64,000 bases of DNA, taken from assembly GCF_000003815.2 (NCBI RefSeq), contig NC_049982.1, positions 16,521,659 through 16,585,658 of the forward strand, given 5' to 3'. Source of the DNA: Branchiostoma floridae (Eukaryota > Chordata > Leptocardii > Amphioxiformes > Branchiostomatidae). Positions 22,262 to 59,700 of this stretch are shown here, one piece after another. Within the stretch, counting starts at the first letter, position 1. The number at the start of each line of letters is the position of its first letter. The notes beneath the pieces are model-generated. The model had not been told where the DNA came from. It saw only the letters and a list, made by a program, of their open reading frames with translations, and ran no database searches. Made by a program: the position numbers and the translations under genes.

Positions 22262-22295
22262 ATGGTAACCACAGTCCAGCAGTTAGCGAAGAAGG
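22262..22295 (+). CDS. TIR copy 1, exon 1
   Basis: ATG at 22262, encodes MVTTVQQLAKK plus one base, donor GTACGT. Phase 1 matches exon 2. The exon is short, so the start is inferred, but copy 2 has a first exon of the same kind and phase. Confidence 0.6.
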
Positions 22296-24511
22296 GTACG
22301 TACAATATGATATCACAGTTTTAGTAAAGTTAACCGAAGCTGCTGTATGGACGCAGAATCTTTGCAGGAAAAAAATTAATGAAGGTCAAACCTATAGTTT
22401 ACAACTGAGTCCTTGTTCTAAGTTTTCTGACTCAAGATTCAATCGTTAGTTGTAGTTTACTATTTAGAAATTGACATAACGTTACTGCATAGTGTAACTG
22501 TTACCTTGCGCTACGTTACGTTTGGTTCCTTTTACTATCATGGTTAACACTATGACCTTCTGCAGGACTCAAGGGGTCCCGTTACATGCTTCGTCACAAG
22601 GACCCTGGTGGATATTAGCATCTCTTGCATATCTGTCGTAACATAAGCTAAGACATGTTTTTACCAGGAAGGCAGGCACATACACCTATTAAATCAACCC
22701 GATGTACCTGATAATTTTCTGTCCCATATGCAGACGTGACGTTTGTGTACCACGCCCAGGACGTGGAGCTGGTCAGGTTTCTGGTGTTCTCCGTGGAGAG
22801 CCAAAACTACAGCACTCTCTTCAGACACCGAGATGTCGTCATCCGACCTGATCAGTCGATCACGGACTGGACGGAAAAGAGCACGCGGAACTCCCGCGTC
22901 ATCGTCGTCATCATTTCTCATTCTTTCATACGTTGGGACGGGCTACTCGATTTGGAAATTGCCATGGTAACGGCGGCACAAAGTCGGGACAAGCTGGTGG
23001 TTGCAGTGATCTGTAAGGGGTGTGAACAGCCAGCTCTCCTATCGGCGGCCAGAACTGTTTCGTTCTACGGAGATTTTGACCGACTTAAAGGAGATCTGCT
23101 GAAGGTCATCCAAGGACATGTGAGTAACCTAAGTAACACCGAATGGTATTTCACAGTTTTAGGCTATGCATATTATTGTATTCGTACAAAACTTATTGCC
23201 TGCGTTGGATTAACTTTCATTGAGGTCTATTTCCCCAAGTTGGTGTACTATGACAGAAAGCGACTCAAGTTTGAGTCTTACTCCCCAGTGCAGTCGTTTC
23301 GTACAGCACTAGTACTATACACTATATCACAGTATTTTAGTATAGCTAATATCTGGTATTCAAACGAGTCCCATCAGACTTTATAATAATCCAAGAAGTT
23401 AATCAACTTATGTTCCTGAAATGAAATCCCTTCTTTCAGATACCAAGTAGCCAGTCGTCGGCGGAGAGGGTGTGCGAATCTCAGCCTATCCCTGGGTTAT
23501 CGCCTTCCAGGCCGCGACAGTGGGTGAGTACAACGTTTGCCAAGGGCATATTACTGACATGATATGTACTGTCGTTCTGTCATAGCGTTTTATGTTCATG
23601 AATCGAGAGCAAAACATGTAGGAAGAAAGCTAGGAGGCAAATCACAACCATGAGAACAATGCAAATATAGTGAGGATTGTTATAATTTTACACTACCATT
23701 CGGCTATTTACGTTCTGAATTATCGTTAAATGCGGCTCAGTCTGCCCATAGATGATTTACTCCAGTCTTTGTACCCCAGGACATAAGCTTGTTAGAGGAA
23801 GACGTGCTGTGTCACATCCAGCTGGGGGTAATAACAGCTCTGCGACCAGCGGACATTGCCGACAAGATGCGGTACATCGTGCGATCCTCCAGAGATCGGA
23901 GCTTCTTCACGTTCTGCGGAACAGCCATCATGAACACGGCCACCTTAACCCTGGCCCTGCTGCTGCTAGCTTTAGTTTCCGATGGTCTAGGATACCCCTT
24001 GTTCGGTGTCCACCCGGTACACATGATTTTTCTGGTGTTCCCATTGTTTAAGGCTTTATACTGCTTCCAGCTGATTGTGACGTATAGATACAAGATTGTG
24101 GCCATGTACAAGTGCTGTAGGTCTGGTAGGGAAAATCAGGTGCCCGATATCATTGATACACTAGTCCGCACAGCAAATACGTCATACAGATCAGTCCGAA
24201 ATTGCGTCATCACTGTCCTAGCCGGAGAGATAGCAATTTGGGCAGTCATTGCCAATGTCTCCCTCGCTCAGGGACATAACATCAAAGGTATCACACAGCT
24301 TCTGGATATGTATCCCTTCACCGTTCTACCCTTTTCTGTCTTCTTGATTCACACGTGTTATGTGGCCGCACACTTGTTGTTTTATCATGACCCGACCATT
24401 CGGACCCTGATAAGGGACCAGAGGTTTTACTTCGAAGAGATCATGAAAGATCCAGACTTCCATAAACACCACAAAACATTGGAGTTTTACCTCAGTAGAC
24501 TGCATCTATAG
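22262..24511 (+). CDS. TIR-domain protein with C-terminal four-helix membrane domain, copy 1
   Basis: Joined exons 22262-22295, 22734-23119, 23440-23523 and 23780-24511 give a 411-residue protein; phases 1, 0, 0 agree at each junction. Residues 12-140 form a TIR domain: box 1 DVTFVYHAQD, the box 2 region RHRDVVIRPDQSI, a core strand SRVIVVIISHSF, and LEIAMV, where TIR domains carry the helix glutamate. Box 3 is poorly conserved. Residues 141-168 are a Ser/Pro linker. Residues 169-411 hold four hydrophobic segments at about 214-236, 246-270, 309-331 and 347-370, with MYKCC and NTSYRSVRNC between them and a charged tail. There is no signal peptide or ectodomain, so TIR should face the cytosol. 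TIR domains either scaffold immune signalling or cleave NAD+; which applies here cannot be told. A paralogue follows directly downstream. Confidence 0.85.
22734..23119 (+). CDS. TIR copy 1, exon 2 (TIR domain)
   Basis: Acceptor CATATGCAG, donor GTGAGT. It carries the whole TIR domain. The frame stays open for about 88 codons beyond the donor, so intron retention would give a soluble TIR protein with no membrane domain. A hand count finds 28 CpG in 386 bp. Confidence 0.85.
23440..23523 (+). CDS. TIR copy 1, exon 3 (linker)
   Basis: Acceptor TTCTTTCAG, donor GTGAGT; 28 codons, phase 0 at both ends. Encodes a Ser/Pro/Arg-rich linker. Confidence 0.75.
23780..24511 (+). CDS. TIR copy 1, exon 4 (membrane domain)
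   Basis: Acceptor GTACCCCAG, stop at 24509-24511. A single exon encodes all four hydrophobic segments and the tail, which contains HDPTIRTLI. Confidence 0.9.
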   Translation, partial: DISLLEEDVLCHIQLGVITALRPADIADKMRYIVRSSRDRSFFTFCGTAIMNTATLTLALLLLALVSDGLGYPLFGVHPVHMIFLVFPLFKALYCFQLIVTYRYKIVAMYKCCRSGRENQVPDIIDTLVRTANTSYRSVRNCVITVLAGEIAIWAVIANVSLAQGHNIKGITQLLDMYPFTVLPFSVFLIHTCYVAAHLLFYHDPTIRTLIRDQRFYFEEIMKDPDFHKHHKTLEFYLSRLHL

Positions 24512-24833
24512 GAACATGCGACATGTAGGGTATACTATGTTTGGGTAACATCACTGCAAGTTTAATTGCGAACATTGTTAATCATATCATTAAGTGTTAG
24601 TTACTATCAAAAATGATATTGATAAACGTTAGATTTCATCAACACCATGGCATTTGGTTATGAAAACTCATGATCATGGTTTGTTTTGTAACATGAATTT
24701 TAGGCACATGCCATGTAACGTCAACAAGTTAATTACGAAACTTCATTAGGCATATAGCTCGTAAACGTTGGCCGCACGCGTGTATTGAGACAAAAAATGT
24801 ATTGTACAAAGGTAGCAAAAACTTCAGTTAACA

Positions 24834-24839
24834 AATAAA
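24834..24839 (+). terminator. Polyadenylation signal, TIR copy 1
   Basis: AATAAA 323 bp after the stop codon; the next GT-rich text is about 20 bp downstream. Confidence 0.55.
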
Positions 24840-25499
24840 AGTGTCAGATTGCAGAAATTCCGTGTGAGTGAGTCCGTTATCAATAACGTTGCATTACGCT
24901 TATGGTCCCATGGCAATTAGGCGACGGCCTTCGAACTTTTAACATTTAATATATGCAAGCCTCCAACAAGTAACGTTACCCGCCACCCGTCAAATTACTG
25001 TAAATGGCACAATCGCGACTTGCAGTTTTTAAGCATTACACCTGGCATCAAAAGGGTGGAATCTGTGATATTCACCACGGCTTCCTGTTGGAAATACCCA
25101 ACAAATACAAATATCTGGCATATTGGGGCTTCCCCCTCGAGGTGACGAAGCCTCGAAGGCACGAGGTAATCTTCCACTGATCACGCCACACTTGGCGCCG
25201 ATCACGCAACTAGATTTCAGGTGAACTGGGCTTGACCAATCAACAAACAGGTGGCACGTGTAACAGGTAGCATAACATTCAAGCAAACCTCATACATTCA
25301 TGTGCGAACCGCCAAGCTGAAAAGAGTGTCGTATGGTGAATCACATGTAAGAATCTTGTAACGACCAATTGTCCAAAGTTTAATGGTCGTTGCTAATATT
25401 TACGTGACCTGAGGTTACCTGTGTGCGACTGAGTGCCGGGCCGAAGACGTCACCATTTCCGTGTTTCCGTGGTACACACACGACTCCGGGGCGCAGGGT
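24840..25499. other. Spacer between TIR paralogues
   Basis: No coding evidence. It should contain the promoter of copy 2; no clear core element was seen. Confidence 0.4.
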
Positions 25500-25560
25500 A
25501 TGTCCACTATCCCTGACCACATACAACGGGAGGCAGACAGAGCAACAGGTGAAGCAACAG
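25500..25560 (+). CDS. TIR copy 2, exon 1
   Basis: ATG at 25500, 20 codons plus one base, donor GTCAGT. A second in-phase donor (GTGAAG) 12 bp earlier would drop four residues. Phase 1 matches the TIR exon. Confidence 0.55.
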
Positions 25561-28500
25561 GTCAGTGATATCAGCCGCTGAATAGCTTTACATGTCAAAA
25601 TCTTGAATGCCATGATATAGCGCGCCAATACAATCGCCAAAACTTCAGGGTAACTTGTTGTGTTACCGATATGTATCTCCGACAAAACGTTGTTAACGTT
25701 ATTTCTATTGATTGACATGTGCAACTATCACTGTAAACGCCTAGTGTATGATAAGAAAGTCAGGAATTTTTGTGTAACTGCTGGGTTGCCCGTATTATTT
25801 AAAATTTAAACCACCACAGCTTGTGTAAAGGCACACCCTGGCAGCTCCCACCACACACCTGTGTTTGTAAATAAAGGCACGTGACTGTCGGGATTTTACC
25901 TTCCCAGAATTCCTGCAACAAAACATTACGTCATGTCCCACTGTAGGACAGGTATTTACAGGTGGCTGTAACGACAACTTCTTTTTTGGTGGGGGGAGTG
26001 ACTTAAAGTTTTGATTTTTTAAGGGGGGTGGGAGATTTAAACATGGACAATTTAGCAATGAAAGTTAGGGTGTAATCAATTTCCATAAACTGTGTCGTAC
26101 TGCTTTGTTGTGTTCCAAGTGTGTGTGTTACTTGATAACTGCCCCCTTACACCTCTGCTGGAGTATTTACACATTTTTAGCTTTCCAAAAATGTAAAAAC
26201 GTCATGGGCATTCACATAAGCAAAACAGCCAAGAAACATTGATGTCAAATTGTCATCAGTCAACAGTTTCTGCATTATTCAGCCATTACCTTTATCTGCC
26301 AAATTCCAAAGTTTGTGAGTTAGCTATAAAACCAATGCTATTACCAATATCAAGTGAAATGATCAGTTTCAAAATGTCAGGCTATCAAATTTTGCAAAGC
26401 ACTTATAAAGTTGGCATACTTAGCAGCTTCCCTTACTCCTCCTGTGTGCAGGTGACCACCTGTATGATGTCACCTTCATCTATCATGACAAGGATCTGGA
26501 CTTTGTGGTCCAGGCTGTGAGATACATCGAGCAACAGCAAGGCCTTAGGATCTACTATCGACACCGTGACTCTTCAGGGCCCATACTGAACAACATGGTC
26601 TACAGTATCCAGAATAGTTGTATTACTGTTGCAATCATCTCCCAGAATTTTCTGGAGGATACATTGCGTGACTATGAGCTACAGCTAGCAATCCTCACTG
26701 CTGTGAAACATGGACAGGGGTGTTTGCCGATTCTCCTTGACAACTGCAGAATTCCTGCAACATTGGAAACTATCGAAACGCATAAATACTGCAGGAGCAC
26801 AGAGTTTAAGGGGCTCAACAGCCTAGTTAAAGTCCACCTGAGCAATGTAAGTCAGTCTCATTATGTCATCAAGTATATAGTTTGTATTGATCATACAAGG
26901 TTCTACAAAAATCTAATTAATCTATGAAACAAAGTTTTTATAACATTGTTCTGAATTTCTCAAAGAACACAACTTCAAAATTACCCTTTCATTAATATGT
27001 TGGAATATAACTGCTATATTTTTTCCTATACATATTTCTTTTGCTCACCAGGTAAGAAGAAGGCTGGAGCTTCAAAGGACTATGTACACTCAAGGAGAAA
27101 CTGCAGAACGGACTGTTGCAGATGTGCATAGGCAGTCCTGCTTCCCCCATCCTCTCTCACAGAGGGTTGATACACAGGTAATATTTTAGCACTCCATCAA
27201 CTAGTGCTCCATATTCATAGTTGTAATTTATAGGTGTTGTGTCATGACATGAACGTACCACTAATGTCAGCTTAATTTCAGAAGGGTGATGGGTCTACAT
27301 AATTAGGACTGGAGGAGGAGACAAGAGTGTTGGTCAGAGGAGGGTCTTCATTGACGACAAACAGTGGATATACTTCACCAGGGGATTGAGATGGGGGTTT
27401 GGTCAACAGAAAATATATAACCTCAGTTAGCATTGATGCTATTAGCCCAAATCTGAGGTGGTAAGTAGAACATGATACAGCACATTAGGAGCTGTGTTAG
27501 CACAAAAAGTTGGTTTGATTCCACTGTCTTTTTGAAACTTAAACTACGCATAGTAAATTACTTGAATAACTAAAATGTAATATAACTGACAGATGTGTCT
27601 TCATTTGACAGCTTGCTAATGCAGCTTGACCTCCAACTGATTCTTGAATATCTATAATTCTCCAGGCTCTGAAGGGAATGATCATCCATGAAGTGTGGTA
27701 CCTGTTGTTCTTGATAGTGTTCCACATAAAGATGGTCACAAGGGGTCTTCCTGAAGGTAAGGGTTGATACAGGCAAAATACAGATAACAGTGCCCAGGGT
27801 TTACATTAGTTGCAAAATGTAGGTGCATTGTATGTTCAACTAGAGTTTGGCGACCTCATACCTCCATGAATATTAAGAGCTTTTGTAAATTTCATGCAAT
27901 TAATTGACATTAACATAATCTATGCATGGTGTTGGTCATCATTGACTTATGTACACATGTCACAATAATAAAATAAAAAAAATCATTAATCATAAAGAGG
28001 TTTTGCAATTTTTACATAAATTATGCAAATAAGTTCCTAATTACCATATAAGTGTTACATTTATTGAAGTCCAGTTATATTGCAAACAATGGAATTATAC
28101 AATTTCCTCATTAATTATGCAAATTAATTTCTCATTTGCATAACATGCATATTATTATGAACACCTTTGCCCAAGCTACTTGCATGCCTAAAATGATGTC
28201 AATCCGTCAATCCTTTCTGCCGTTATCCTCTTTGGAATGTCTTGACAAAAAAAAGCCCCTGCAGTTCCAAAATGAAATGTTAGGGGGCTGAAACCTGCCC
28301 CACTTTGTCATGACACTGCAAGCTATCTACCACCCAAATGTCAGGACCATATCACGTCCAGGACAAGAGATACATGGAAGAAACTGAGATGATAGAATAT
28401 TGTCATTAATTATGCAAATGTTTTGACATTTCATGGAGATAATAATAAGAAAGAGGCTGCCCTAGATATAGGTGTTTAATGAAGGTCTGGTATCTGGTGA

Positions 28501-29440
28501 TGGCATATGAGCAGATAACCAGAATGAAATCCCAGACATAACCATATTCATGCATGATATATCCCAATCATTGACTCACTTGTTTACTCTAACTCTTAGG
28601 TAAAATAATGATTTACTCCTACATGACACGACACTGTAACAATCAGTGCGATGACAAAATCTTGTTCACCTTGTAGGGAGATACGGAACTTGTAACGGCC
28701 TTGGCTGGTTGCACAATGGCTCCCGCTGTGTAATGTCTCTCCTGCAGTCAGCATACATGTGTCTGCAGGTAGCATGTAAGACTGCAATGGCACCCCTACA
28801 CTTGGTATGGGCCCAGGTCTTCCGCCAACCTGAAGATTCCAGTCTTATGACTTACATAGGGATGCATCTGTACAACAGTACAAATATCTTAGTTCTTATA
28901 CTTGTCTTTCACATAGTTTGGCACAATAACTATTCATTACTTAGTTTGAACAGTACATTTCTCATTGTCCCTTTTGTGAAAGGCCACTTCTGTGGTCAGC
29001 ATACCTCAGCCTATCGGAAAAAACTCAAACAAATGTATGAGTGTTGCAAGAAAATCAGAAAGAAGAAGACAAGAGCAGAGTTGAGAAGATGTTTATTCTC
29101 TGCCAAGACTAGCTATACCAATGTGCGGAACTGTATCATAGCATCATTAGGATATGAACTGTTGCAATGGGCAGTCCTTGTGTATTGTACTGCCAAAGGA
29201 GTCTTTGATTTTACCACGCTTCCAACATTAAACACTTTTCAGCTGATCGTTTTGTTTCTCCACACATGTTATCTTGTTGCGCATTTATGGCTCTACTACC
29301 ATGACTCTACTATGTATACCCTCATAGAAAAAAACAGATTTCACTATCCAGAATTGATGGAGGACAGTAATTTTCACATTTATCATGTAGAATTGATGAA
29401 TTTTGTGTCTTGGTATTATGACAAGGGACAGTTCAAGTAA
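25500..29440 (+). CDS. TIR-domain protein with C-terminal four-helix membrane domain, copy 2
   Basis: Joined exons 25500-25560, 26452-26846, 27052-27177 and 28748-29440 give a 424-residue protein with phases 1, 0, 0, the same gene structure as copy 1. Residues 22-152 are the TIR domain: box 1 DVTFIYHDKD, box 2 region YYRHRDSSGPILNN, strand CITVAIISQNF, and DYELQLAI with the usual helix glutamate. Residues 153-194 are a Gln/Arg-rich linker. Residues 195-424 have four hydrophobic segments, the inter-helix motif AKTSYTNVRNC, and HTCYLVAHLWLYYHD near the end. The membrane domain aligns with copy 1 throughout, and several motifs are almost identical. TIR conservation between the copies is lower, so the membrane domain appears to be the more constrained part. 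An optional cassette (27666-27756 with 28677-28747) would lengthen it to 478 residues. Confidence 0.85.
26452..26846 (+). CDS. TIR copy 2, exon 2 (TIR domain)
   Basis: Acceptor TGTGTGCAG, donor GTAAGT. Encodes the complete TIR domain. Only 7 CpG by hand count in 395 bp, against 28 in the paralogous exon. Confidence 0.85.
27052..27177 (+). CDS. TIR copy 2, exon 3 (linker)
   Basis: Acceptor GCTCACCAG, donor GTAATA; 42 codons, phase 0 at both ends. Encodes an Arg/Gln/Thr-rich linker, longer than the 28-codon linker of copy 1. Confidence 0.7.
27666..27756 (+). CDS. TIR copy 2, possible cassette exon with extra hydrophobic segment
   Basis: Acceptor TTCTCCAG, donor GTAAGG, open in phase 0 and leaving phase 1. 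It encodes VWYLLFLIVFHIK, a membrane-helix-like segment. The leaving phase fits an upstream extension of the last exon that starts at 28677 after TTGTAG, and that extension is open into the main exon. Copy 1 has no counterpart that I can see, so it may be an alternative exon or chance. Confidence 0.4.
27838..28500 (+). repeat. Dispersed AT-rich repeat in TIR copy 2 intron
   Basis: Begins with the same block as 12701-12733. Further along, blocks such as CTGCAGTTCCAAA, GGGGGC and a run describing TATCTACCACC recur in the same order at 38740-38890. It looks like a decayed member of one repeat family; no coding capacity. Confidence 0.55.
28748..29440 (+). CDS. TIR copy 2, exon 4 (membrane domain)
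   Basis: Acceptor CTCCTGCAG, stop at 29438-29440. The start at 28748 is set by phase 0 from the linker exon and by alignment with copy 1. The frame is also open upstream to 28679, which is needed for the cassette form. Confidence 0.85.
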   Translation, partial: SAYMCLQVACKTAMAPLHLVWAQVFRQPEDSSLMTYIGMHLYNSTNILVLILVFHIVWHNNYSLLSLNSTFLIVPFVKGHFCGQHTSAYRKKLKQMYECCKKIRKKKTRAELRRCLFSAKTSYTNVRNCIIASLGYELLQWAVLVYCTAKGVFDFTTLPTLNTFQLIVLFLHTCYLVAHLWLYYHDSTMYTLIEKNRFHYPELMEDSNFHIYHVELMNFVSWYYDKGQFK

Positions 29441-30626: not shown

Positions 30627-31560
30627 AGGAACAACAGGTCTGTCCTTGGTGCTGAACACTCCACGTATAAGAACAGGTCAGTTCTTGGTGCTGAACACTA
30701 TCCACATATAAGAACAGGTCAGTTCTTGGTGCTGAGCACTGTCCACATAAGAACAAGTCTGTCCTTGGTGCTGAACACTATCCACATATAAGAACAGGTC
30801 AGTTCTTGGAGCTGAACACTATCCACATATAAGAACAGGTCAGTTCTTGGTGCTGAGCACTGTCCACATAAGAACAAGTCTGTCCTTGGTGCTGAACACT
30901 ATCCACATACAACAACAGGTCAGTTCTTGGTGCTGAACACTATCCACACATAAGAACAAGTCTGTCCTTGGTGCTGAATGCTGTCCACACAAATGAACAG
31001 GTCTGTCCTTGGTGCTGAACACTCCACGTATAAGAACAGGTCAGTTCTTGGAGCTGAACACTATCCACATATAAGAACAGGTCAGTTCTTGGAGCTGAAC
31101 ACTATCCACATATAAGAACAGGTCAGTTCTTGGTGCTGAGCACTGTCCACATAAGAACAAGTCTGTCCTTGGTGCTGAACACTATCCACATACAACAACA
31201 GGTCAGTTCTTGGTGCTGAGCACTGTCCACATATAAGAACAAGTCTGTCCTTGGTGCTGAATGCTGTCCACACAAATGAACAGGTCTGTCCTTGGTGCTG
31301 AACACTCCACGCATAAGAACAGGTCAGTTCTTGGTGCTGAATACTATCAACATATAAGAACAGGTCAGTCATTTGTGCTGAGCACTGTCCACGTAAGAAC
31401 AAGTCTGTCCTTGGTGCTGAACACTATCCACATATAACAACAGGTCAGTTCTTGGTGCTGAACACTATCCACACATAAGAACAAGTCCCTCCTTGGTGCT
31501 GAATGCTGTCCACACATAGGTTTGTCCTTGGTACTGAGCACTATCCACACATAAGAACAG
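30627..31560 (+). repeat. 40-bp minisatellite array 1
   Basis: About 23 imperfect units averaging 40 bp, core TTGGTGCTGAACACTATCC followed by an ACATAAGAACAGGTC-like half. Higher-order structure is visible: a block of several units starting near 30800 recurs about 284 bp later with the same variant order. The repeats create long minus-strand frames that are not genes. The same unit, inverted, forms arrays at 54110-54700 and 56632-56830. Confidence 0.95.
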
Positions 31561-44700: not shown

Positions 44701-47700
44701 ACCATAACAGACTGTGAGGGGAGAACAGGTGAAAGACTTTTCTTGTATCTTCCTCAGCTTCTTCTGACCCTGTGGTGTTCTGTGTTGACCTTGCAATACN
44801 NNNNNNNNNNNNNNNNNNNNNNNNNNNNNNNNNNNNNNNNNNNNNNNNNNNNNNNNNNNNNNNNNNNNNNNNNNNNNNNNNNNNNNNNNNNNNNNNNNNC
44901 CCACAGGCCATACAGCCAGATACAGCTTGGTCGGGAAGCCAGGCAGGTGGTTCTATGGGTTGCAAAGAATTACAATCAAGATATCAGAAAATTAGCCTTG
45001 GATAATTCTGTTACAAGAGCAAGTAAATCATTTACATTTTTGGTATACATGTAACTTTAAGATCAAGAACTGCTACTCATCCTTGTTAACTTCTGAGTAG
45101 CAAATGGGTACATGAATAGTTATATAGTCAACAAACACTATAAAGGATAAAAGTATTTAAATTTAAGAGAACAGATGGAATAAAAGTAATAAATGTTGAC
45201 AAATGATACAGATTTTGTGGATGCTTTGCCTGACACAATATATTTGCCAGCCCTTCCAAAATATACCCCACCTTCCACAGAACCTCTCTCCCTTCTTCTT
45301 AAGCTGAAGACGTTTGTGTCCATATCTGTGCGTGGAGGAGGGGGAGGGGGCACCATGAAGTCCAGTCCAGTAGAAAACAGGGGCATGTCTATCCTGTCTG
45401 GTCGGGTGGCACTGAAGGTGGATCTGCCAGGTCATCAGGTGGTGTCAGTGTGGCATCAGAGACATCACCTGTGTGGACAGTTTCTGTGGTGTCCTGGGGA
45501 AGTGGTGGCAGTTCTCGGGTGATTCCATACACAGTGTACTCTGTGAAGTCACGTTCTTGTGTGTCATGATCTTCACTGGGGGAAAGAGTATCCTCAATTG
45601 TGTTGCGGGTGTCTATTACGTTTTGTGTGGGCGTGGACGTGTCTGAAACATTGCACGGGATACTTGGCAGTGTGGCTGGATCAAAGGGTATGTCCTGGGC
45701 TTCGCTTGGCCCCCACGACTCCATCTCATGTTCTGACCAATCAGCTTGATTTCGAGCAAGCAGTGCTGCTATCCCATTGCCAGAGGGTGTGGTAGCCTCA
45801 CCCCCCTCCAACCCACGTCTTACATCCATGGTGTTCTCTCTGAGTGACCAAGCTGCGGTTTCCCCAGTGTTTTCCCCTATGTACTCTGAGGGGGGCACTG
45901 GTTCGGCCACAGCATTACTGGGTAGTGGAGGCAGTGGCCGGTTAGACTGTAAGCTTCCCACACCTCCAAGTATCACAAACTCTTCATCATCGTAGTCTTC
46001 AAGTTCATCAATGGCTTCCTCTCCAAGGGCATCTACTGCTGTCTCTATCTCAATATCTAATAGGAAAGACAAAACAGTGCATACAAATCAGTATTTTGGT
46101 CATGGAAAGCTGTATGGGAACATGGTACAGGTAATATTTTGAAGGGCCTTCTCAAGGATTTTGTTATTCCTTATTTTTTTCTTGCTTTCTTTGAACTTTG
46201 ATTTACACATTAACTGGAANNNNNNNNNNNNNNNNNNNNNNNNNNNNNNNNNNNNNNNNNNNNNNNNNNNNNNNNNNNNNNNNNNNNNNNNNNNNNNNNN
46301 NNNNNNNNNNNNNNNNNNNGGGGCTATTCCATAAAGATGACATCACTTAGCATATAGAAACACAGCTCGAGGGAGGGATAACTTGTACACAGTTACATTG
46401 ATTTTCAACCACATCAATGCCTGTCCCTATTTTCAGATTGCTGCCGTAGGACCTAATTTGTCTTTAAGATCCAGCTGGACGACCTTATGTATGTGTATAT
46501 CCATGCCTGGCAGACTAGAACCAGAGACTTCAGGCATTTTACCTTCATCATCATTAACATCTGCTGGTGAACATTGTTCCCCCGTTCCCTCTGTAATGCC
46601 ATTCTCCTGAGCTTCTGCAGTGGGACTGGGATTTAGACTGGTGTCTTCCACAACCTCCTCCAGCACAGTACAGTGCATCAAGAACACTGCCTTTAGAATG
46701 TGCCTCAGGTCACTCGCGTAGTTGGTCTGTAGTTGGTCTGCAACACCTAAAAAAAGTGAATACAACATTATCATAAGTATTTGCCTTAAAAGTTTACATC
46801 ATTATTTGTACCTGTGAGGTTACTGACAAATCCAAGTACTGGGTGCTTATCACGTTTGATTTAGACTCTTGGAAGTTTCTCCTATTAGCAAGTTATGTGA
46901 TCAAAAGTAGACCCTGCAATATATTTGCACATTCTATTTCCCATCCATCTCTTGGCTTTTAACTGTACCATATAAAACAAAATGCTACAACAGTCAGCAA
47001 TGACCCTTACAAGCTGAAACAAAATTGGATATTGAACTATATCCCAACTGATCACCATTACTATGTAATCAAAGCCTCTGTAGTCCAAAGTAAGAACTTT
47101 GAAGTTGTGAAAATGATATATAATGCGTATCTGATCTTTCACCTTAACGCTAACAATTTAAGACTCGGCTTAGGATATACAATATCAAGATCAATATCTG
47201 TACTGTTGTATTCAAATTTGATCATCCCCCTAAGAAACACAAAATGGGTTTCCAATATCAGACAGAAAAAAGGATCCCCTAACATTGAATTATTCATATC
47301 TGGTTCAATACTAATAAATCTGAAAACAATAGGTCCCATCACCACTGACTGCAAAGTCTTGATAAGCGTAAAAATGGAAAAAAATCATTATAGGTATCCT
47401 GTGACTCCAGGCCATATTTATAGGTAATCATAACATTGAAAAAAAACATCAACAGAATAAGGATAAAAGACAGACATGAGAAGACTGGCATGAACAATCT
47501 CTTGCATTACATGTATAACAAATCCCTTCCCTCCAGCAAAATAAGGGAAAATTGCTGATTCAAAAACCTGTGTCACAGAGCTTTTGTATGCACTGCAACT
47601 ATTGAACGGTTAGTAACAAACATATTCTATCATGCTCTTTCTGGGGGTAGTTCATGACATCTTAAAGCAGTGATTTGACATCAAGAATTTGAATTTTACA

Positions 47701-50700
47701 AACTTCAGGGATTCTTAATTATGACAAGCTACCATTAAGTTTTCTTTCAAATAACAGATTAGTATGTTACAACACTACATTGAGGAACCTACATGTGTAA
47801 GCTGATGTGGTAGAAGACCTGGTACAGTCTGTGTGTGCCTCTCCAATCTAACTCAACATACATAAGTTACACCTGGCTTTTCAAATGTCAGAGTCAATTT
47901 AACTCCTAGCCAACAACACATGATACAGACGACATCACAAAATAAAGATATTGAAAAAAAAAAACACCTAGAAGTTGCCTGTCAGGCAGAGTTAGTGAAT
48001 GGGAAGTAACAACTATCGTGCAATCCATTGACCTGTGTACTGTGCTGGCAAACATAAAGTGAGACTGTCACATCAACCTCTAGACCTACTGCTGAGTACA
48101 TTTTGAAACACCTGTCTACCAGCACTTTTGATCCACCTTATAAACTGAACCTGCCTGCGAGTGAGACAAACACGCTTGAAATTGATGAAATACTTTCAGA
48201 GATGAGACTTAATTTTAGATAAGATTATGTCTGTGCCGACCATATTGATTACTGCTTGGCCTAGTTATCTGGGATGGATACTTTCAAGCTTAAAATTGAT
48301 TTCAGTTTAAATCAAACTGATATCAATTTAGTTCCTTAATCAGTTCAAATTTTTCACATTTTAACTACATTGTAAATATGAAGCAGATACACCAAAACAT
48401 AGACTGAGGTCTCCGACAAAAATCAATCAAAATTCAGCTGCAAGATATCTGATTCTGCAGTAAATGATAGACACAGCCTCTACATTTCAAGACTTATCAT
48501 AAATGCAGTGAATTTGAACCTGAAATCATCTTGAAAATCCCCTTCAAGTACATGTAACTCGGTTTTCTTTGTGCAACAAGGTCACCACAGCAAATATGAG
48601 ACATAAATTTATTACAACAATGTCTGTATCGGATTGAGCAGACAAAGCAGTACGAGGCTTATAACATGAATGCAGCAGTCATGATTTACCAGATATACAG
48701 ACAAACAGCCGATGGATGAGGTCACTGCTGCTCTTAAACCTGGCCCTGAGTTCCTGTCGAGCTGCTAGCTCTGCTGCCTGGACGGCCAGCGCAATCTCAT
48801 GCTCATCGTGCATCTCTGAGGTGTAGGAGCTGGTCTCACTGCTGCAGCCACTACACATGGGGAGGGGCTCAGGTTAGGAAGAGTACAAGCAAAATCTTTT
48901 CATCATTGAGACAAATAGGCAAATCTGACACTTTATTGTTTGAGATGCATTTCAAATAGGATTGCTATGGATGAAATACTTTGATTCATCAATACCCCCC
49001 ATTTCATGGAGGAAATGAATTTTGGATGATGTAGAAGTGGATTGTATAGTTCTATGCATGACTCAGGTGATTGTGAATCTGTGACTCTACCTTTCCTCTT
49101 CCCACTGCTGTGAGCTGAAGGAGCCCATGCTGCTGGTTACACTGCCCAGGGAACTGCTGTAGGAGCCGTTCCCACTCCCTGAGTCCATGTACTTCAGCCT
49201 TTGGATCCTCCCTGGACTGGGCTTGGGACTTTGTCGTGGGCTCTCCACATCATCAAACCTACAGAAGAACAGAATACACCAAGGTTAAATTCGAACACTT
49301 GGTTTCATGACAGTTCATCAGATTACAAGATCTGACTTTTAAGGGGTTTCTGTTGGAGACTTTGAACTTTTTGCCACTGGTTAAAACACACCTTGGACCT
49401 AGAACACCAGAGCTATAACTAAGTGGAGCAATTCTAAGTATTCTAGGGGTCCAAAGCACTGATTAACCTTTGTATCACATTAATTAGCCTGATAGTACCA
49501 GATTGTGTCCCAGCTGCAAACATAAAATTTTGGCCATTTCACTGCTGAAATATGAAGTTCTTAAAAAAAAACTGTGCTTTTATCGATGCCCAAAAGGCAT
49601 GGACAATGAATGAAAACAATTCTTTGTCCATATCCTTTGATCAGTAACCCAAATCAAAACAAGTTGGTAACAGCAACTTGGGGTAGGAACGAAGAAGTAA
49701 GAAGGATGGAACTAGGGTATGGCTAACCAGAGAGACAACAGTTTTGGGCTGTATCTGGAACTTTCCACATCCTCAAATCTGTAATGGAGACAAAAAAGGA
49801 CAACGTGTGAAGGACAACACCTATTGAATGTGAAAAACCAGGCTTTTGGCATATCAACTTATAAAATCAACCCAAGATTTTCATATGCTGATGCCAAATT
49901 GAACACAAAGTAAGAGTCAATGCCAAATAATGTTCCCAACATCAAATACATTAATTTTGTACAAGTTTTCAAACTGCATCTTCTATGTTCTCAACAGTTG
50001 GATGTATGATTGCAATGACGCAGCAAGTCACTCCATAAAATACAGCTTATAGTGTGGCTCAGGTCACACAACCAAAACATGAATAAAACAAAATATTATA
50101 AAATAAAAAACGAAATAAAATGTCATGCAAGTCTTTTGCTTCACTTCTGGGCTGCTTTTAAGGACTACTTTGTAAACATTTCCGTAAGTCTGTGCACTAA
50201 ATGGGCCTACCAAAACAAATTAAGTACAGTGTAGTTTTGTTCTTGCCTGAAGTTTCTTCTTGGGCTGTACTGTGCAGCAGCACTGGCAGGGATTCCCACA
50301 GCATCCAGCAGGGGTGACCTACGACCTCGTGCCTCCTCCCCACTAAGATGTCTTTCCTTCAACACCTTGAGCTGACCCACTGCACTTGCAACTGGCTCCA
50401 CCAAGCAATTTGCTTCTCCTCCAACTTTCCTTTGCTCATTCCATGATGTGGAACAGACATTTATTTCCACGTTATGACCTTCTTTCCTCTGGTGAGTTGA
50501 CTTTGAGGAGTCATCCTCAGAACTGCCTGGCTCGAATGAATCTTCCATATAAAACATTGGCTCGTCTGAACTTTTACTGACATGTCTGTTTCTGGGAGAC
50601 CCAACAGACCTGTGGCTGCTACTTAGACCCTCAGCCTGGCCTTCAGGGTTGAAAATGACGGTGCTGGACGTCTTCATACCAAATATCTCTGAAGTGTCAC

Positions 50701-53700
50701 TTTCACTTGAAGACAGGCAGCTAGTGGTGTCGGAGATGGCAGTGTCAATCATTACGCTGTCCTCATCATCATTGTCTAATCCACTGGAGATCAAACTAAT
50801 GTCACTACCCCTTCTTGGTTCTTGGTACACTCCATTTATCAATAGACTATCACCTGGTACATCTGGAGGTGAACTTGTTTGGTCATTGATTTCTCTGTCA
50901 TGGTTGGTGCTTTCTACTTGACTTTTGAAAGTGTATTCTATTGTTTCTGATGGCCCTTCTTCACTTGACATGCACTTGTCACTGAGATCCCCATCTTTCC
51001 TCACTTCCTCCTCCTTTACAACTCTAGAACTTGGAATTGATCTTGGTTCTACTTCCAACAGTTCTGACAGCTCCTGTATTTCTTTGTGAAGGCTTTCATC
51101 ATTTTTGTGTGTATCTCTTTCATGCAGATCAGCAGCATCTTCTATTTCTTCTGGTCGAACGACAGTCATACCAATGTTCATACTTTCATACCTTGTAGCA
51201 AGATCTGAGGAATAGTTGCTTGGACTAAAGGAGTCAGGGTCAGATAGCTCCTCAAATGACACTTCTCTTTGTCTCATCACTTCCTGGCATTGACAAGGCT
51301 TCCCTTCTTCCCCACTGCATTTCTGTAGGGCCTCTTTACGATCTGATTCAGGTTTCACATCAGGTAAAACCTCTGCATCCTCCTTTGAGGTGCACCCTGC
51401 TACAGCTATTCCATCAACATTCTGCTCTTCTTCAGTCTGATTTGATGCTTTCCATGCACCAAAGGATACCTCAGTCCACTTGACAGGGCTGCTGCCCCCG
51501 GACTCTACTGCTGCAGCTGCCTGTGACTCTTCAGGAATGGGTTCAACTGTGGGCTGGCTGGCAATGTGGTAGACATTTATGTCTCTCCCACTTCCACCAG
51601 TATCAGTTGCCAAAGTATCTGTCTTTATTGCACATTGCTCTGACAGTGAGTGCTGTATGTCCTTTAATATCAAAGCCTCGATTACCTCAGGGTTGCTCTG
51701 TAGCTCGTTTGACTCTGTCCTTGCCAGTACCTCTTTCTGAGTTTCTGACATGGATCCAGTGCTTGTGACAATTATTTTGGAGTTTGCATTCTGGCTGATT
51801 CTTGTGTCTGCATTTTTTGCAGTACTGCTGTTCTGTGTGCTGCCTATTGGTGGTGAGCCATTTCCACATGGGTCAGGAGTTCTGTCTTCAACATCACATC
51901 CCCTGACTTCAATTGTGACAGATTCTACCACATCTGGCAAATTTGCTCTGAGCCTATCAATGTCTGGTGGTTTGTCATCTAAGGGCCTTATGTCAGGAGG
52001 TTTCCCCTTTGAGGGCTCCTGTTCCACCACATTACTGTCTTGTATTGCCTTTTGGTGCTGCTCCAGCATGGCATTCATCCCATCCCTGGGGGAGTCTGAC
52101 ATGTTGGACACATCTGTCTCCTCTGTTTCGTTCCCAGACTGATCGCTGTTCTCTTCCCTACTGGATAGCCTGACTCTAACCTCCTCTCCGTACATGGGCA
52201 TGCTTGTTCGGTGGGGCTCGCTGCCACTCTGGTCCAGGTAGTTGGCCATCTCACTGCGGATGTTCTGGAACATGCTGTGTAACTGCTGCAACTCTGCAAC
52301 ATTCACACAAAAAGTCAGACTTTACAATCTTTACTAGGCAGATAAACATGGTGCAATGGAATTAGTTTCATCTTGAGGCCTTCTTTGTCATCGTTATGAT
52401 CACTTTCCCATTTCATTAATTGTTGTCATGGATGGCAATTAGTGCCACTACATTAATCATTAGAACACAATTTATCACCATTACACTGAACGTCATTTAT
52501 CATGTATACTAATTTTTGTAACCTTGATGATTATAGGTCTGGAGCACCTGTCATCTTCAGTGTCAACATGGTGCAGCATTATCTCATTATCTCAGACCAC
52601 ACAGCAATATTTGATTACTGGGACAACCATGGAATTACCCCACAATCATCACTGTCATTGTCAAACAAACAGCAGGTCACAACAGTTGAGACGCATTGCA
52701 GTTAGTGGTGTTTTGGTCTGGTGTTTTGGAACATTACACGCAACTCTGGTACAGTGTGTAGACTTTGCTTGTCCCTTACCAATAGGACACATGTTTCTAT
52801 CTTATGATATACATGTACCCTTACCTATATGGTACATGACCCCGACATGTATGTACATTGTATGTCTGTTGTATGATTGTGCGTTTTAGGATTATGACTG
52901 TTCAATTTCTGACCTGTAGTATGTGTGTCCTGAGCTTCAGGTGAATACAGATCTGATTCTTTAGGTGGGAATGATTCCAACTTCAGCTCCGTCCTCTCTG
53001 ATTGGTCCAGGTCATGAAGATTGACAGGTTCCACATCCCTGTACATCCCAGGCTCCTCTGAGCTGCTCAGAGCCCTCCCTAGAACTGTCAGCTCCTGTGG
53101 ACTCAAGGTCTGCAGCAGCTCTCTGTATGTAATGTTACAGATGAGTGAAAATGGTGTCCATACAGTCTTCAAGACTGGTACATGATCACTGCAAAAATAC
53201 AGCTCAATATATTTGAAGTGAGGAAAGACAAAATCTAAAAACAAATCTAACTCTGAAAATTGGATTAAACCTTGAAGTAAGGTTTTTTCACTACAAAAAA
53301 TGCTGTCTGAAATGTTACCTTGCACAAAAGAGTATGACAGGACATAACATATATCTTACAAAAAAATTTAAAAGAACTTCAATGGATTGAAAAGTAAAAG
53401 ACAATCAGTACAATACATTGTGTTTTATATGGATTTCCCCATTGCTCCCCACCCTGCTCTCCATAAGAATCATCTATTTGGGACAGGTGTACAGAACCTG
53501 CAGGCCCTCACTGCAGATCAACAAATAACAGGCTAACATCTGCCCTGTAGGAATACATGATCCAGTGGCCATATCTATCCTCAAACTTATGTCTTTGTTT
53601 GTCATCCCCCCAGGTTGTCTAATAGCACCATATAGTATCAAGCAGCAACCAATTGTGACAGATGCCCTCCAGCCTTTGACTGATCTCACAAATTTCACTT

Positions 53701-56700
53701 CTCAGAAGGCAATGCATCAGGCAAACATGTCGATTTAGTAGCGAAAATTTCCTCTGACAATATGTGAGCTTATCAAATGGAAAGGTAGCACAGAAAGATG
53801 TCAGTAGTTGCTGACTCTACTTTCTTGACACAATACATTTTTGTTTGTTTATAGATAATGGCCTACTAAGAATAACAAGCCATAAAATTGGCGAGAGCAA
53901 TTATGTCCCTTACAGGATGTGATCCATCAACTTGAGTGAATATAGCTGTTATCCACTATTACAACAAGCACTGAGCTTGCTTGCAAGGTGGAGGAAAATG
54001 TATTTAACAACTGCACTAGATAGGAAATCCCAAACCTGCAATAATCTGTACAGAATTGTATTCTATGTGTTACAAGTGCATCTTCAATGTTGTATGATGA
54101 TTGCATTCAGCAACAGGTCTCCTTTTGTGTGGATAGTGTTGAGCACTAAGAAAAGAAATGTTCTTCTGTGTGGACATACCTGTTTCTTAAAGTAGATAGT
54201 GTCTAACACCAAGGACAGACCTGTTGCTTTGTGTGAATAGTGTTCAGCACCAAGGACAGACCTGTTCTAATGTGTGGACAGTGTTCAGTACTAAGGACAG
54301 ACTTGTTCCTTTGTGTGAATAGTGTTCAGCACCAAGGACAGAACTGATATTATGTGTGAATAGTGTTCAGCACCAAGGACAGAACTGATATTATGTGTGG
54401 ATAGTGTTCAGCACTAAGGACAGAGCTGATCTTATGTGTGGATAGTGTTCAGCACCAAAGACAGAACTGATCTTATGTGTGGACAGTGTTCAGCACCAGG
54501 ACAGACCTGTTCAAATGTGTGAATAGTGTCCAGCAACAGGGAAAGACCTGTTCTTAATATGTGTGAATAGTGTTCAGCACCAAGGCCAGACCTGTTCCTT
54601 TGTGTGGATAGTGTTAAGCACCAAGGACAGACCTATTCTTAAAAATACATTGTGTTCAGCGACAGGGAAAACCTTTTCTTGTATGTAGATAAGGTTTTTT
54701 TCCATTCACTCTCTTCTGATGATGCTTAAAAAGGTGACCTAAGAATTTCAGAATGTCAAGATTTCATCAAAAGATTTATTCATCCTTGGGAAACTTTAAT
54801 GATTCTAGTCATCTGTCTCACAAAGGTTCCATGGTGACAAGACAGGGGTCATATTGTGACCCTACTGCAACCTAATGACCTGTAATGATTGCAAATAAAT
54901 GGCAAGGTGTTGGGCAGCAAGGGAAGGTCACATGGGTTAATTGATGCTGGCTGTTTTCTCCTCAGACTGCTGACAACATAAAGGTTTCCTGAGGACTGAG
55001 AACATCCACATGCACCTTTTAATGGCCTTCATGACAGCTAAGAAGGACCCAGTGGACATGAACATGCATCTTACTGTTATGCTGACAAGTTGCTTTTTTC
55101 AAATATCACATTCAACTTTTTTGCTTACATTGTTATGTCTCTTGCTATCTAAAGGAATGACATACTTAAACTTAAATACGAATAAACTAAGGATGATGGA
55201 TCATCATCGGTCTTTTGATGCACAACAATAAAACCTGATGGAGGTAGAGATAAAGCATATACTAACAAATGTCGTGATCTTTGGAAGGAAAGACGAAGTG
55301 CCCTGAATGAGACTGGTTGATTCTATAACTTACATAAGGAGAGAAATGACCTGTCTGTGACAGGAATGATCCCGACATCATTAGAACCACAACTGAGGCA
55401 GTGTTATAGTGGCTAGGGAACTCTGTTTCTTTCTGGGAGGTCACGAAACCAAGTCCCATGGCAGAGTATGCCAACAGTGCCTCAGCACTCATGTCATCCC
55501 TGTGGGTCTTGAAATAATTGGGTGGAGGATGCTAGTATCACCAGGTCATACCAATTTACTTCCATGCTTCTCTCTCTTCTTTGAATAAACATGAGTGAAA
55601 GAAAAGGGAGAAATAAGCAAGTGTGACAAAACAGTAACCTACTCCCAAGACTTTACTGTAAAGATGTTCTGATGAAGTCCAGGAGGAATGAAGAAAACAA
55701 ATTTGATGTCATCTGCAATAATATGTCCTGTTATACATTCTTCACAGCTATAACTGTCAAACTTTAACACAAATGCAGAATAAAAGCTTACCTGATCTTA
55801 TAAAGGAGTGACTGGAATGGTCTGAACATCTCACATATATCTGTAGGGTCCCTGTCCACATTAAGAGGGCCATCTTCTTGCAGCAGCAGCCCACTGACGG
55901 TAAGGAAGAATGGAACACTGTCATTTATACATCAACATGAACAGCAAGGGAGTGGTGTGTGGTGATAACTGTTGTCTGCAGCTTTGAATTGTTTTTCATA
56001 CCGCTCAATATTTGGGAGCTCATGTTGTTTATTTTCCATGTTAGATTTTAAGGGGCATTCTGCTCCTGAAGTGAGTATCATAATTGATTGGAGAATAAAT
56101 TTGTATGCTTGAATACAATTTGTTTTACCAAATTTACCATACACTGAAGCATGAATGCAGGGAACATTGTAGTGATCGAGTTCTTGGACTTCTCAGGAGG
56201 ACTCTACAATGTCGATTTCTCTTTTTACTTAAGTGCAGAAATCCATAGGACACAGAATGTCTGTTCAGCTGGTAATGTTCATTGCCAACATTTCATTTCT
56301 GACAAGTAGAAATGGGAAGAATGCCTGAGAAAAGAACGTTGAGGAAAAGCCCATGCAAAGGCCAAAATCATGCACAATAGAAGAAGGTCAGGATGGGGGT
56401 ACATGGATTTGATAAAGGATTATTGTCAAAAAGACAGCTGAGATGCTTTAGCCGAAAGTCGTATTTGCAACCCGAAAAGCATAATCTGTCAGAAAATAAT
56501 ATGTGCTTCTGAAGTGGAATGCTCCTTTAAGCTTATAAAAATACATTTTCATCAATTTCACGTCATGAAGATCAGATTTTTTGTTTGGATGAATTGGTTT
56601 TAACTCCCTATCAAGCAAATAAGACCTGATCTTATGGTGCTCAGCACCAAGGACTTATATGTTCTTACGAGTGGACAGTGCTCAACACCAAGGACGGAAC

Positions 56701-59700
56701 TGTTCTTTTGTATGGACAGTGTTCAGCACCAAGGACAGACCTGTTCTCATGTGTGGACAGTGTTCAGCACCAAGGACAGACCTGTCCTTATGTGTGGACA
56801 GTGTTCAGCACCAAAGACAGACCTGTGCATTTGTATCCCCCAAAAATGTCATCTATCAGAAAATAACACACACTTCTGGAATGAGCCCCTTACAGATTTC
56901 ATATGACTCTACATTGCAAGAAATTTTGCATTTTTGGCCAGATATATGTGCACATGTACTGTTTTTAAGCTTGCATTAAATGAGGCCACTGACATGTGTA
57001 AACCATGCCTGCTTTCCTGATGCAAATTAGATGACCAGGCAAAACCGATCTCACTTCAAGTTCATTGGCAAGCCTTTAGGCTTAATGTAATCCCATTGAA
57101 CTGATGGGTTTAGGCCTGGTTGCACAGCTAATGCACACAGGATTGGAAAATTCATTATTGCAGGGCTGGGAAAGAGCAATTACTTTGATGGCTTTATTCA
57201 GCTGGTATTTGACATGCTCTACCAACTGGAAAAGTACAAATGGAATGAACATAGCTTAATACACATTTCCATGACAATGAGATACAAAGTAGCACATAAC
57301 CTAAATAACACTTGCACAGCATGGTAAATAAAGTTTATGCTAGAGTTACTGTCAAGTGTACTTACATTGTACAATTATGTGCATCTTTAGTTCAGAACTT
57401 TTAGAGAACATATTTCCCAATCAATCAAACCATAGATTGAAATATTTGCATAATGATGCGAATCAGTAATAAAGGGAGGTACAGTTTTTGGATCTGCTGT
57501 TTTTTTCCTTAACGTACTGCACTTGAAATATAAACTTAAGGGCACATGAATGGTTCACTGACATCCGCATTTTAAATCTGTTTGTGTCTGTTTGTGAGCA
57601 TAACATTCAGTAGTTTGTCTACAGCACAGACAACACAATACTATTTAAAAATGTAATATAGGTTGTCACATCAAAGCCATAGGCTAAACTGTATGTACAT
57701 ACTTTATAACACTGGGTGATAAAACCCAAATGCTCTGTGTATACACATGTAAAACTTACAGTTCACAAAATGACAGTAATATATAGGATACTCTACTAGG
57801 GATGACCGACAATGCAGATTCTTTAAAAGTTGGATGAGGTAAGGGATTGATAGCTTCTTACAAATGCCCTGAACAGCTTCCATTTCACTCCAAATCCTTA
57901 AATCCTACGTGGTTTGCTTGAGGTTCAGTGTGTTTCAATTTATTAGTTTGTCTCATAACTTGAGGCCACTTCTAGCAAGAGGTCTTGTCCTGGCTTATCT
58001 CAGTCATCGCTATACTGCATGCCATGAGTGTTTCCTTTACAGACTTTCCAAATGTTAAACATAAATCCAAACAGACACATTACCTGTATAATGAAAGATA
58101 TATATAAAGATTAATAGATGACAGGGATTTGGAGATTTTGTTCTGGGGCTAAAAAGGTGGGATTTAGAAAAAGTACTTTCCTTAAAAATCCCCAGACAAC
58201 ATAACCTGCAATGCCATGGGTAATGCCATTACCACTTGTAATTTCTCGGAGCCCTGTAGAGATTTAAACCTAATTTGGGGGAAGCAGCTTGCTGGATGTA
58301 TGAGCTGAAAGGCACCCTTGCTGGCATGCTCAAAATAAAGGGTTACTCAGGAGATACTTAAAACAAGCCAACAAAATGATTTGAAACATGTTAACAAACA
58401 ACAAGCACTTTTCAGTACCCAACATGAATTTACTTACCGTATATTCTCGAATAAAGTACGCACTTTTTTAACTTTTCAAAATTGAAAAGGTGCTACAAGT
58501 TGTTGCCAAAGTTGGGGTGCGTACTTTATTTGAGGTCATTGCACAGAGAAATGGTAAAAAAGCTTAAAATAAAGCAAGGTGGAGCTGCACTTCTAGTAAT
58601 GTTTCAAAACATGCACATTGTTGTTGTCTTGTAGTTGTCTAAAAATGAAACAAAGAAATTGTCTTAACAAGATTTACATAAGATTGGCATTTGCACACAA
58701 TCCTTTGAGTTACCGTATATTCTCGAATAAAGTACGCACTTTTTTAACTTTTCAAAATTGAAAAGGTGCTACAAGTTGTTGCCAAAGTTGGGGTGCGTAC
58801 TTTATTTGAGGTCATTGCACAGAGAAATGGTAAAAAAGCTTAAAATAAAGCAAGGTGGAGCTGCACTTCTAGTAATGTTTCAAAACATGCACATTGTTGT
58901 TGTCTTGTAGTTGTCTAAAAATGAAACAAAGAAATTGTCTTAACAAGATTTACATAAGATTGGCATTTGCACACAATCCTTTGAGTTAGTGACTTTGACT
59001 TGTACAACTGGTTTTTCCTGATTTCTTCTACCATTTCACAGTGATTTTTATAATTTGCAGCAGGCAATTCACAAGTTTATAGAGACAATGACAGTGTCAA
59101 TGCAGGTTATTTCATGCAAAATAACCTGGGAAAAACATAATAAATTTGAATTTATCCAGTTAAAAGTCTGTTCAAAATTGGTGGAGAAGGGGTGCGTACT
59201 TTATTTGAGTTTTTCCATTTCATCTTTCAGTCCCAAAGATCTGCCTAAGACTTGTCCAAAATCAGGGGTGCGTACTTTAATTGGGGTGCGTACTTTATTT
59301 GAGAATATACGGTAGTGACTTTGACTTGTACAACTGGTTTTTCCTGATTTCTTCTACCATTTCACAGTGATTTTTATAATTTGCAGCAGGCAATTCACAA
59401 GTTTATAGAGACAATGACAGTGTCAATGCAGGTTATTTCATGCAAAATAACCTGGGAAAAACATAATAAATTTGAATTTATCCAGTTAAAAGTCTGTTCA
59501 AAATTGGTGGAGAAGGGGTGCGTACTTTATTTGAGTTTTTCCATTTCATCTTTCAGTCCCAAAGATCTGCCTAAGACTTGTCCAAAATCAGGGGTGCGTA
59601 CTTTAATTGGGGTGCGTACTTTATTTGAGAATATACGGTAGTAGCTACAGGGGAATCCCAAAATCAAGTCTACATGGAGGGGGTCTTGGCTTGTTGAAAG

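Follow-up and report, generated by a model that had tools for sequence, protein, structure and literature searches.

The locus and its gene models

The window analysed here is a stretch of 64,000 nucleotides from Branchiostoma floridae (C4:16521659-16585658), and the genome searched comprises 513.4 Mb in 431 contigs. On the plus strand of the window, gene prediction places two genes head-to-tail, gene 1 (22262-24511) and gene 2 (25500-29440). Each is predicted to code for an N-terminal TIR domain, a linker and a C-terminal membrane module with several hydrophobic segments. The features of the pair are as follows (positions are those of the window; aa, amino acids; LRR, leucine-rich repeat).

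22262..22295, plus strand: gene 1 exon 1, leader (11 codons and one base), phase 1 donor at the 97.3rd percentile
22734..23119, plus strand: gene 1 exon 2, TIR domain (Pfam TIR_2; genome-wide TIR_2 match C4:16544397-16544732)
23440..23523, plus strand: gene 1 exon 3, linker (28 aa), phase 0/0 (gene model)
23780..24511, plus strand: gene 1 exon 4, membrane module with four hydrophobic segments, stop codon (homology, hydropathy)
24834..24839, plus strand: AATAAA, possible poly(A) signal of gene 1 (motif position only)
25500..25560, plus strand: gene 2 exon 1, leader (20 codons and one base), phase 1 donor, start predicted
26452..26846, plus strand: gene 2 exon 2, TIR domain (Pfam TIR_2, PDB, LRR-TIR frames of the same genome)
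27052..27177, plus strand: gene 2 exon 3, linker (42 aa), phase 0/0 (gene model)
27666..27756, plus strand: gene 2, possible extra exon of the five-exon model only, one hydrophobic stretch (splice sites, hydropathy)
28748..29440 (from 28677 in the five-exon model), plus strand: gene 2 last exon, membrane module, stop codon (homology, hydropathy)

Gene 1 would code for 411 aa and the four-exon model of gene 2 for 424 aa. Both models are devoid of internal stops and have consensus-like splice sites, and both show intron phases 1, 0, 0. The first-pass annotation had described a tandem pair with a common exon order and common phases, and this is borne out in the four-exon models. Splice-site strength is given throughout as the percentile rank among the GT dinucleotides of the window (donors), with acceptors ranked likewise. 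The start codons of both genes are predicted only, because YAG acceptor-like sites are present between each start codon and its upstream in-frame stop. For gene 1, this stop lies 69 bases upstream, and the interval holds two YAG sites.

A five-exon alternative of gene 2 is also open. It has the added exon, begins its last exon at 28677 and codes for 478 aa. Donor 27756 ranks at the 99.9th percentile and acceptor 27666 at the 90.2nd; for the last exon, acceptor 28677 (96.2nd percentile) compares with 28748 (94.4th). The five-exon version is favoured by a short SLL match to gene 1, just upstream of 28748, which becomes coding. The four-exon version is favoured by the intron phases held in common with gene 1. 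A genome search with the candidate exon returned no other match at E ≤ 1. Both models appear viable, and the choice between them is left to transcripts.

The TIR domains

Pfam TIR_2 (PF13676) is found in gene 1 (2e-8, 35.2 bits) and in gene 2 (6.8e-8, 33.5 bits), in both cases above the curated cut-off of 28; gene 2 Pfam scores were taken on the five-exon version. The TIR domain that had been assigned to both genes from the sequence alone is confirmed. The other TIR family (PF01582) is passed by gene 1 (22.6 versus a cut-off of 21.3), while gene 2 falls short (20.4). No other Pfam family is matched in either protein at E ≤ 10, the death domain and the STING domain included.

The gene 2 TIR exon was compared with PDB sequences. 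The best match is Toll-receptor-related 2, a Hydra protein (3.1e-6), followed by TIRAP (from 2.1e-5) and a TLR15/TLR2 entry (7.3e-5); MyD88 is matched weakly (0.24 and above). For the gene 1 TIR plus linker, PDB sequences gave no match at E ≤ 10. A profile of the two TIRs returns the same kinds of match and also reaches bacterial TIR entries weakly (E 0.028 and 0.046, and 0.1 for AbTIR).

A genome-wide TIR_2 scan returned 145 matches, and there are 179 TIR candidates. At E ≤ 0.01, the gene 2 TIR matches 46 places in the genome, counting its own and that of gene 1. Its best other match is a frame on contig C11 (E 3.7e-8), and the C11 rows are 31-35% identical to it. Both C11 frames tested for Pfam domains (2 of 2) carry LRRs together with a TIR. 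At the same threshold, the gene 1 TIR has no match apart from its own and gene 2 (2.1e-4).

A TIR tree of 27 rows was computed. Stretches that fell short of 85 aa, failed the E threshold or duplicated all or part of another row had been removed beforehand. In one set, 14 of the 20 fetched TIR regions yielded no row. The two TIRs are sisters in this tree (support 92/90; 92% of 200 bootstrap trees).

Clustering of the TIR of SARM1 leads to cleavage of NAD+, the same has been proposed for amoeba TirC, and the pair might likewise code for membrane-tethered NADases in which TIR clustering cleaves NAD+. The catalytic Glu of TIR NADases sits in a helix-C WxxxE motif, and the helix-C Glu is kept in both genes. 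This Glu does not discriminate, since it is also present in Toll-like receptors (TLRs). Four residues before it, both genes have a Leu, while a Trp is found there in 18 of the 25 other tree rows (17 counted by script, plus row L049, whose motif the script had cut and which was read from the alignment). WxxxE is absent from the seven remaining rows, six of which come from one set of 20 TIR regions. In gene 1, a Trp lies three residues further upstream of the Leu. The weak matches of the profile to bacterial TIR entries would speak for an NADase, as would a precedent from amoebae, TirC, in which a transmembrane helix tethers a TIR NADase (PMC13142454, a preprint). The nearest relatives of the gene 2 TIR are, however, TLRs of its own genome. 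With TLRs as the nearest relatives of the gene 2 TIR, and with the Trp of WxxxE absent and the Glu kept, the earlier suggestion that the TIR cleaves NAD+ is not supported. The motif residues are not decisive, and we regard a tethered NADase as improbable.

A second alternative concerns the direction of the effect. A membrane-held TIR may act as a negative regulator or decoy that titrates TLR adaptors. Judged by eye, the BB loop, which follows the conserved RD, differs in both genes from that of the other TIRs of the genome, and the gene 1 TIR is very divergent. A decoy cannot be told from a positive scaffold by sequence, and we consider this version unlikely.

The membrane module

The membrane exons of the two genes are homologous, with 33-34% identity and E values of 5.3e-30 and 1.2e-30 in whole-genome searches (5e-33 by tblastn within the window). 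BLASTP of whole gene 1 against the five-exon gene 2 gives 2e-41 in a one-to-one comparison. In a BLAST-type genome search, the gene 1 module has two matches at E ≤ 1, itself and gene 2, and no others. A third match of the gene 2 module (C10, E 0.307) contains two stops and was rejected. These searches score only the best first-look candidates (5 of 5 for the gene 1 module, 4 of 4 for the gene 2 module), so that distant copies may be missed.

Relatives were also sought elsewhere. No significant match was found in Pfam, NCBIfam or PDB sequences; PDB 7w5z_T6 (E 0.28) and Pfam AHH (0.22) were judged to be chance matches. At the sequence level, STING gave no Pfam match, and no PDB sequence matched the module better than E 0.28. 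Searches with two short peptide patterns only gave 157 matches in prokaryote genomes and 34 in viral contigs, none of which was confirmed. In plasmids, there was no significant match in a search confined to the gene 1 module.

Loci around other TIRs were screened for the module as a sample of the 145 TIR_2 matches, in which multi-exon modules would escape. A hidden Markov model (HMM) built from the two modules was run on open frames of 30 loci plus the window, and then of 49 loci. The best frame outside the pair reached E 0.023 (0.039 in the 49-locus run) and lies on a TIR exon. The 30 loci plus the window were also screened for frames of at least 80 aa with at least three segments at a Kyte-Doolittle (KD) value of at least 1.5. 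Six frames were found besides the pair, all within one set of 20 TIR regions; a separate set of four TIR regions holds no frame with three segments. Four of the six are on the TIR strand (two in L015, one in L023, one in L027) and look low-complexity or non-coding by eye. One, in L030, is long and by eye NB-ARC-like.

The sixth frame, L023:5365-6612, is the sole plausible polytopic one among the extra frames. It is a 416-aa frame with three hydrophobic segments that adjoins a TIR exon but lies on the opposite (minus) strand, and by eye it is perhaps channel-like.

By sequence comparison, the module is restricted to this pair within the genome. It is found twice, each time downstream of a TIR exon and on the same strand. 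For one module, the chance of lying on the same strand as any of the 179 TIR candidates and no more than 2 kb downstream of it is about 3.5e-4 (179 x 2 kb / (2 x 513 Mb)), a post hoc estimate.

This estimate bears on the possibility that no fusion exists and that two separate genes, one for a TIR-only protein and one for a membrane protein, are repeated in tandem. The joining of TIR and membrane exons is predicted from splice sites, and the linker exons are poorly conserved. In addition, gene 2 has an ATG close to the beginning of its membrane frame (codon four in the four-exon version), and two AATAAA motifs lie in intron 3 of gene 2. In gene 1, however, the first Met of the membrane exon is at codon 30, inside the stretch that aligns with gene 2, and no AATAAA occurs between TIR and membrane exon. 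The donors at the ends of the two TIR exons are strong (99.4th and 99.6th percentile). Together with the low chance of a fortuitous pairing of module and TIR, this makes separate genes very unlikely.

Topology and conservation

In gene 1, the module has four hydrophobic segments at KD ≥ 1.4, here numbered as transmembrane segments TM1 to TM4. Region boundaries were placed from the hydropathy profile of gene 1. Charge is a better guide to topology than the number of segments: basic residues prevail in the TM2-TM3 loop (K+R/D+E 7/3 in gene 1 and 14/2 in gene 2). The predicted lumenal loops have 12-18 aa and at most one K or R. This charge pattern fits a cytosolic location of the TIR and of both termini. 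Some N-glycosylation sequons fall within predicted lumenal parts or on their borders (N327 in gene 1; N255 and N262 in gene 2, four-exon numbering). Since sequons occur on both predicted sides (see below), they are not decisive for topology. The layout proposed in the first-pass annotation, an N-terminal TIR with a polytopic C-terminus, agrees with the gene models, the TIR_2 matches and the hydropathy.

Identity between the two genes differs along the proteins. It is 32% in the TIR (40/124) and 18% in the part before TM1 (7/39). From TM1 to TM4, it is 22%, 35%, 43% and 43%. Each lumenal loop has 17% (2/12 each), the cytosolic loop 31% (11/36) and the tail 39% (16/41). The two genes agree in tail residues (His and Asp) and in a CC pair that follows TM2. 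In the module, codon positions 1, 2 and 3 differ at 0.57, 0.38 and 0.75; for the TIR, the values are 0.53, 0.42 and 0.75. This pattern, with third positions saturated, points to coding sequence under old purifying selection in both parts. The order of TIR, linker and membrane exon has been kept in both copies despite the saturation.

Short, variable lumenal loops together with the retained TM3, TM4 and tail suggest an anchor or assembly module that faces the cytosol, not a ligand-binding ectodomain. This is an indication only, as it rests on two sequences and on loops of 12 columns. The module was also described as part of a membrane sensor. That term finds no support from an ectodomain, the predicted lumenal loops being both short and the least conserved parts.

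Alternatively, the module itself may sense a lipid, an ion or the state of the membrane and trigger the TIR, which would make it a new kind of innate sensor. The identity is highest in TM3, TM4 and the cytosolic tail, the tail His/Asp residues and the CC pair are invariant, and the collections searched hold no significant relative of the module. Against this, there is no evidence for a ligand, a simple oligomerising anchor predicts the same conservation, and two sequences only are compared. We consider a sensing module a doubtful option. It is tempting to speculate further that the pair founds a new class of innate-immune membrane proteins of animals, in which a polytopic module would respond to a cue in the membrane or the lumen and assemble the cytosolic TIR with no ectodomain; we hold this to be possible rather than probable.

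Relation to known systems

The TLRs of the same genome (C11 cluster) resemble the pair in having a membrane-held TIR, and they are the best matches of the gene 2 TIR. In TLRs, however, the TIR is C-terminal and follows an LRR ectodomain and one helix, whereas the proteins of the pair have an N-terminal TIR, no ectodomain (no LRR is detected by Pfam) and several hydrophobic segments at the C-terminus. Soluble adaptors (MyD88, TIRAP, TICAM) do not fit either, given the hydrophobic segments seen by hydropathy and the lack of a death domain by Pfam.

Hydra TRR-1 and TRR-2 also have a membrane TIR without LRRs and a short extracellular part (PMC1896004). They differ from the pair, with its N-terminal TIR and polytopic C-terminus, by this short extracellular domain, which is likely Ig-like (PMC6321704). 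Amoeba TirC, too, has its TIR tethered to a membrane in a layout other than that of the receptors, but its tether is a single N-terminal helix and its TIR was acquired from bacteria (PMC13142454). Cnidarian NLRs carry 3-5 N-terminal transmembrane domains (PMC5094078). Thus, immune proteins have gained membrane segments elsewhere too.

In amphioxus, 28 TIR combinations were surveyed, 20 of which are amphioxus-specific (PMC2575513). Like the pair, TIR-NACHT, TIR-NB-ARC-WD40 and TIR-SAM join a TIR to a new partner; no polytopic membrane partner is among the amphioxus-specific combinations named in the excerpts of that paper. One eukaryotic TIR group with diverse architectures includes lancelet members (PMC7075850), and the ecTIR-DC families are invertebrate TIR proteins absent from vertebrates (Gerdol 2017, as cited in PMC6321704). 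A TIR joined to a polytopic membrane module was not found described in the excerpts of the literature searched, and the ecTIR-DC survey (Gerdol 2017) may contain one. Most plausibly, the pair is a new TIR domain combination; many such combinations are already known from this animal. The orphan membrane module is its interesting part.

Proposed origin and function

The data fit a single fusion of TIR and module, followed by one old tandem duplication: the membrane exons are homologous, the module occurs only in the pair, and the TIRs are sisters. A TIR exon would have been fused once to a polytopic membrane module, and the tandem pair would derive from that fusion. We consider it most likely, at roughly even confidence, that the products are membrane-held TIR scaffolds or regulators in Toll-type signalling. 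On the cytosolic side would lie the TIR with its linker, the loop between TM2 and TM3, and the C-terminal tail; only short loops would face the other side. The helical module would position and cluster the TIR at the plasma membrane, the endosome or the endoplasmic reticulum. The TIR may then act by TIR-TIR contact with TLRs or MyD88-type adaptors, so that the protein would serve as a scaffold or regulator held at the membrane without a ligand-binding ectodomain. The sequence itself shows the open gene models, the homology of the TIRs, the paralogy of the genes, the confinement of the module to the pair and the pattern of conservation; from these we infer the splicing, the topology, the membrane site, the partners and the direction of the effect.

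Several points weigh against this scaffold reading and its single origin. (i) The joining of the TIR exon to the membrane exon by splicing is a prediction, and the linkers align poorly (19%, 5/27 identical). (ii) Four hydrophobic segments had been proposed for each gene. This holds for gene 1, where all four are clear. In gene 2, three segments reach KD ≥ 1.4, and the weak counterpart of TM2 is seen only on the Goldman-Engelman-Steitz (GES) scale (1.01). (iii) Composition shuffles reach the segment count in 313 of 2000 cases for gene 1 and in 100 of 2000 for gene 2. As shuffles of a hydrophobic module often reach it, the count alone is weak evidence. (iv) The five-exon gene 2, which has good splice signals, adds an extra hydrophobic stretch, so that its topology would change. 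(v) Further sequons lie in predicted cytosolic, membrane or TIR parts (N36 and N301 in gene 1; N237 in gene 2). (vi) The gene 1 TIR is divergent, so that partners cannot be read from it. (vii) Both TIRs have long branches in the tree (1.53 and 0.57), and their side of the tree is poorly branched; its 17 rows comprise the pair, seven TLR rows and eight others. Because of these long branches and the lack of resolution on the 17-row side, the support for a single fusion is moderate.

If the fusion is confirmed, the pair would represent an animal TIR on a multi-helix anchor of unknown fold, outside the receptor and soluble-adaptor layouts. Such a layout would put a signalling domain on the membrane without the usual sensing part on the outside. 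As a two-gene family at one locus, the pair could be removed as a unit and could be traced across Branchiostoma species.

Other features of the window

Other open frames of the window gave no match at the thresholds used (10 frames in one Pfam scan, three in another). The minus strand of 45389-53355 holds open frames with no Pfam match; the longest has 704 aa (50207-52321), and the others have 232, 121 and 176 aa. As a guess, these may be exons of one large protein.

Three minisatellite stretches were noted in connection with mir-2060, an amphioxus family.

30633-31560: minisatellite
54196-54639: minisatellite
56637-56826: minisatellite

The Rfam family mir-2060 (RF03662) matches at 30868-30953 and at 54350-54435, both within minisatellites with a period of 41 bp. 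Genome-wide, there are 84455 first-look candidates, of which 55 were scored; these gave 89 matches (87 above the cut-off), many in adjacent copies. The family has the look of a minisatellite, not of a microRNA gene.

Two adjacent tandem duplications (58434-58988 and 58987-59642) have 100% matches and periods of 276 and 326 bases. They are either very recent or an assembly artefact.

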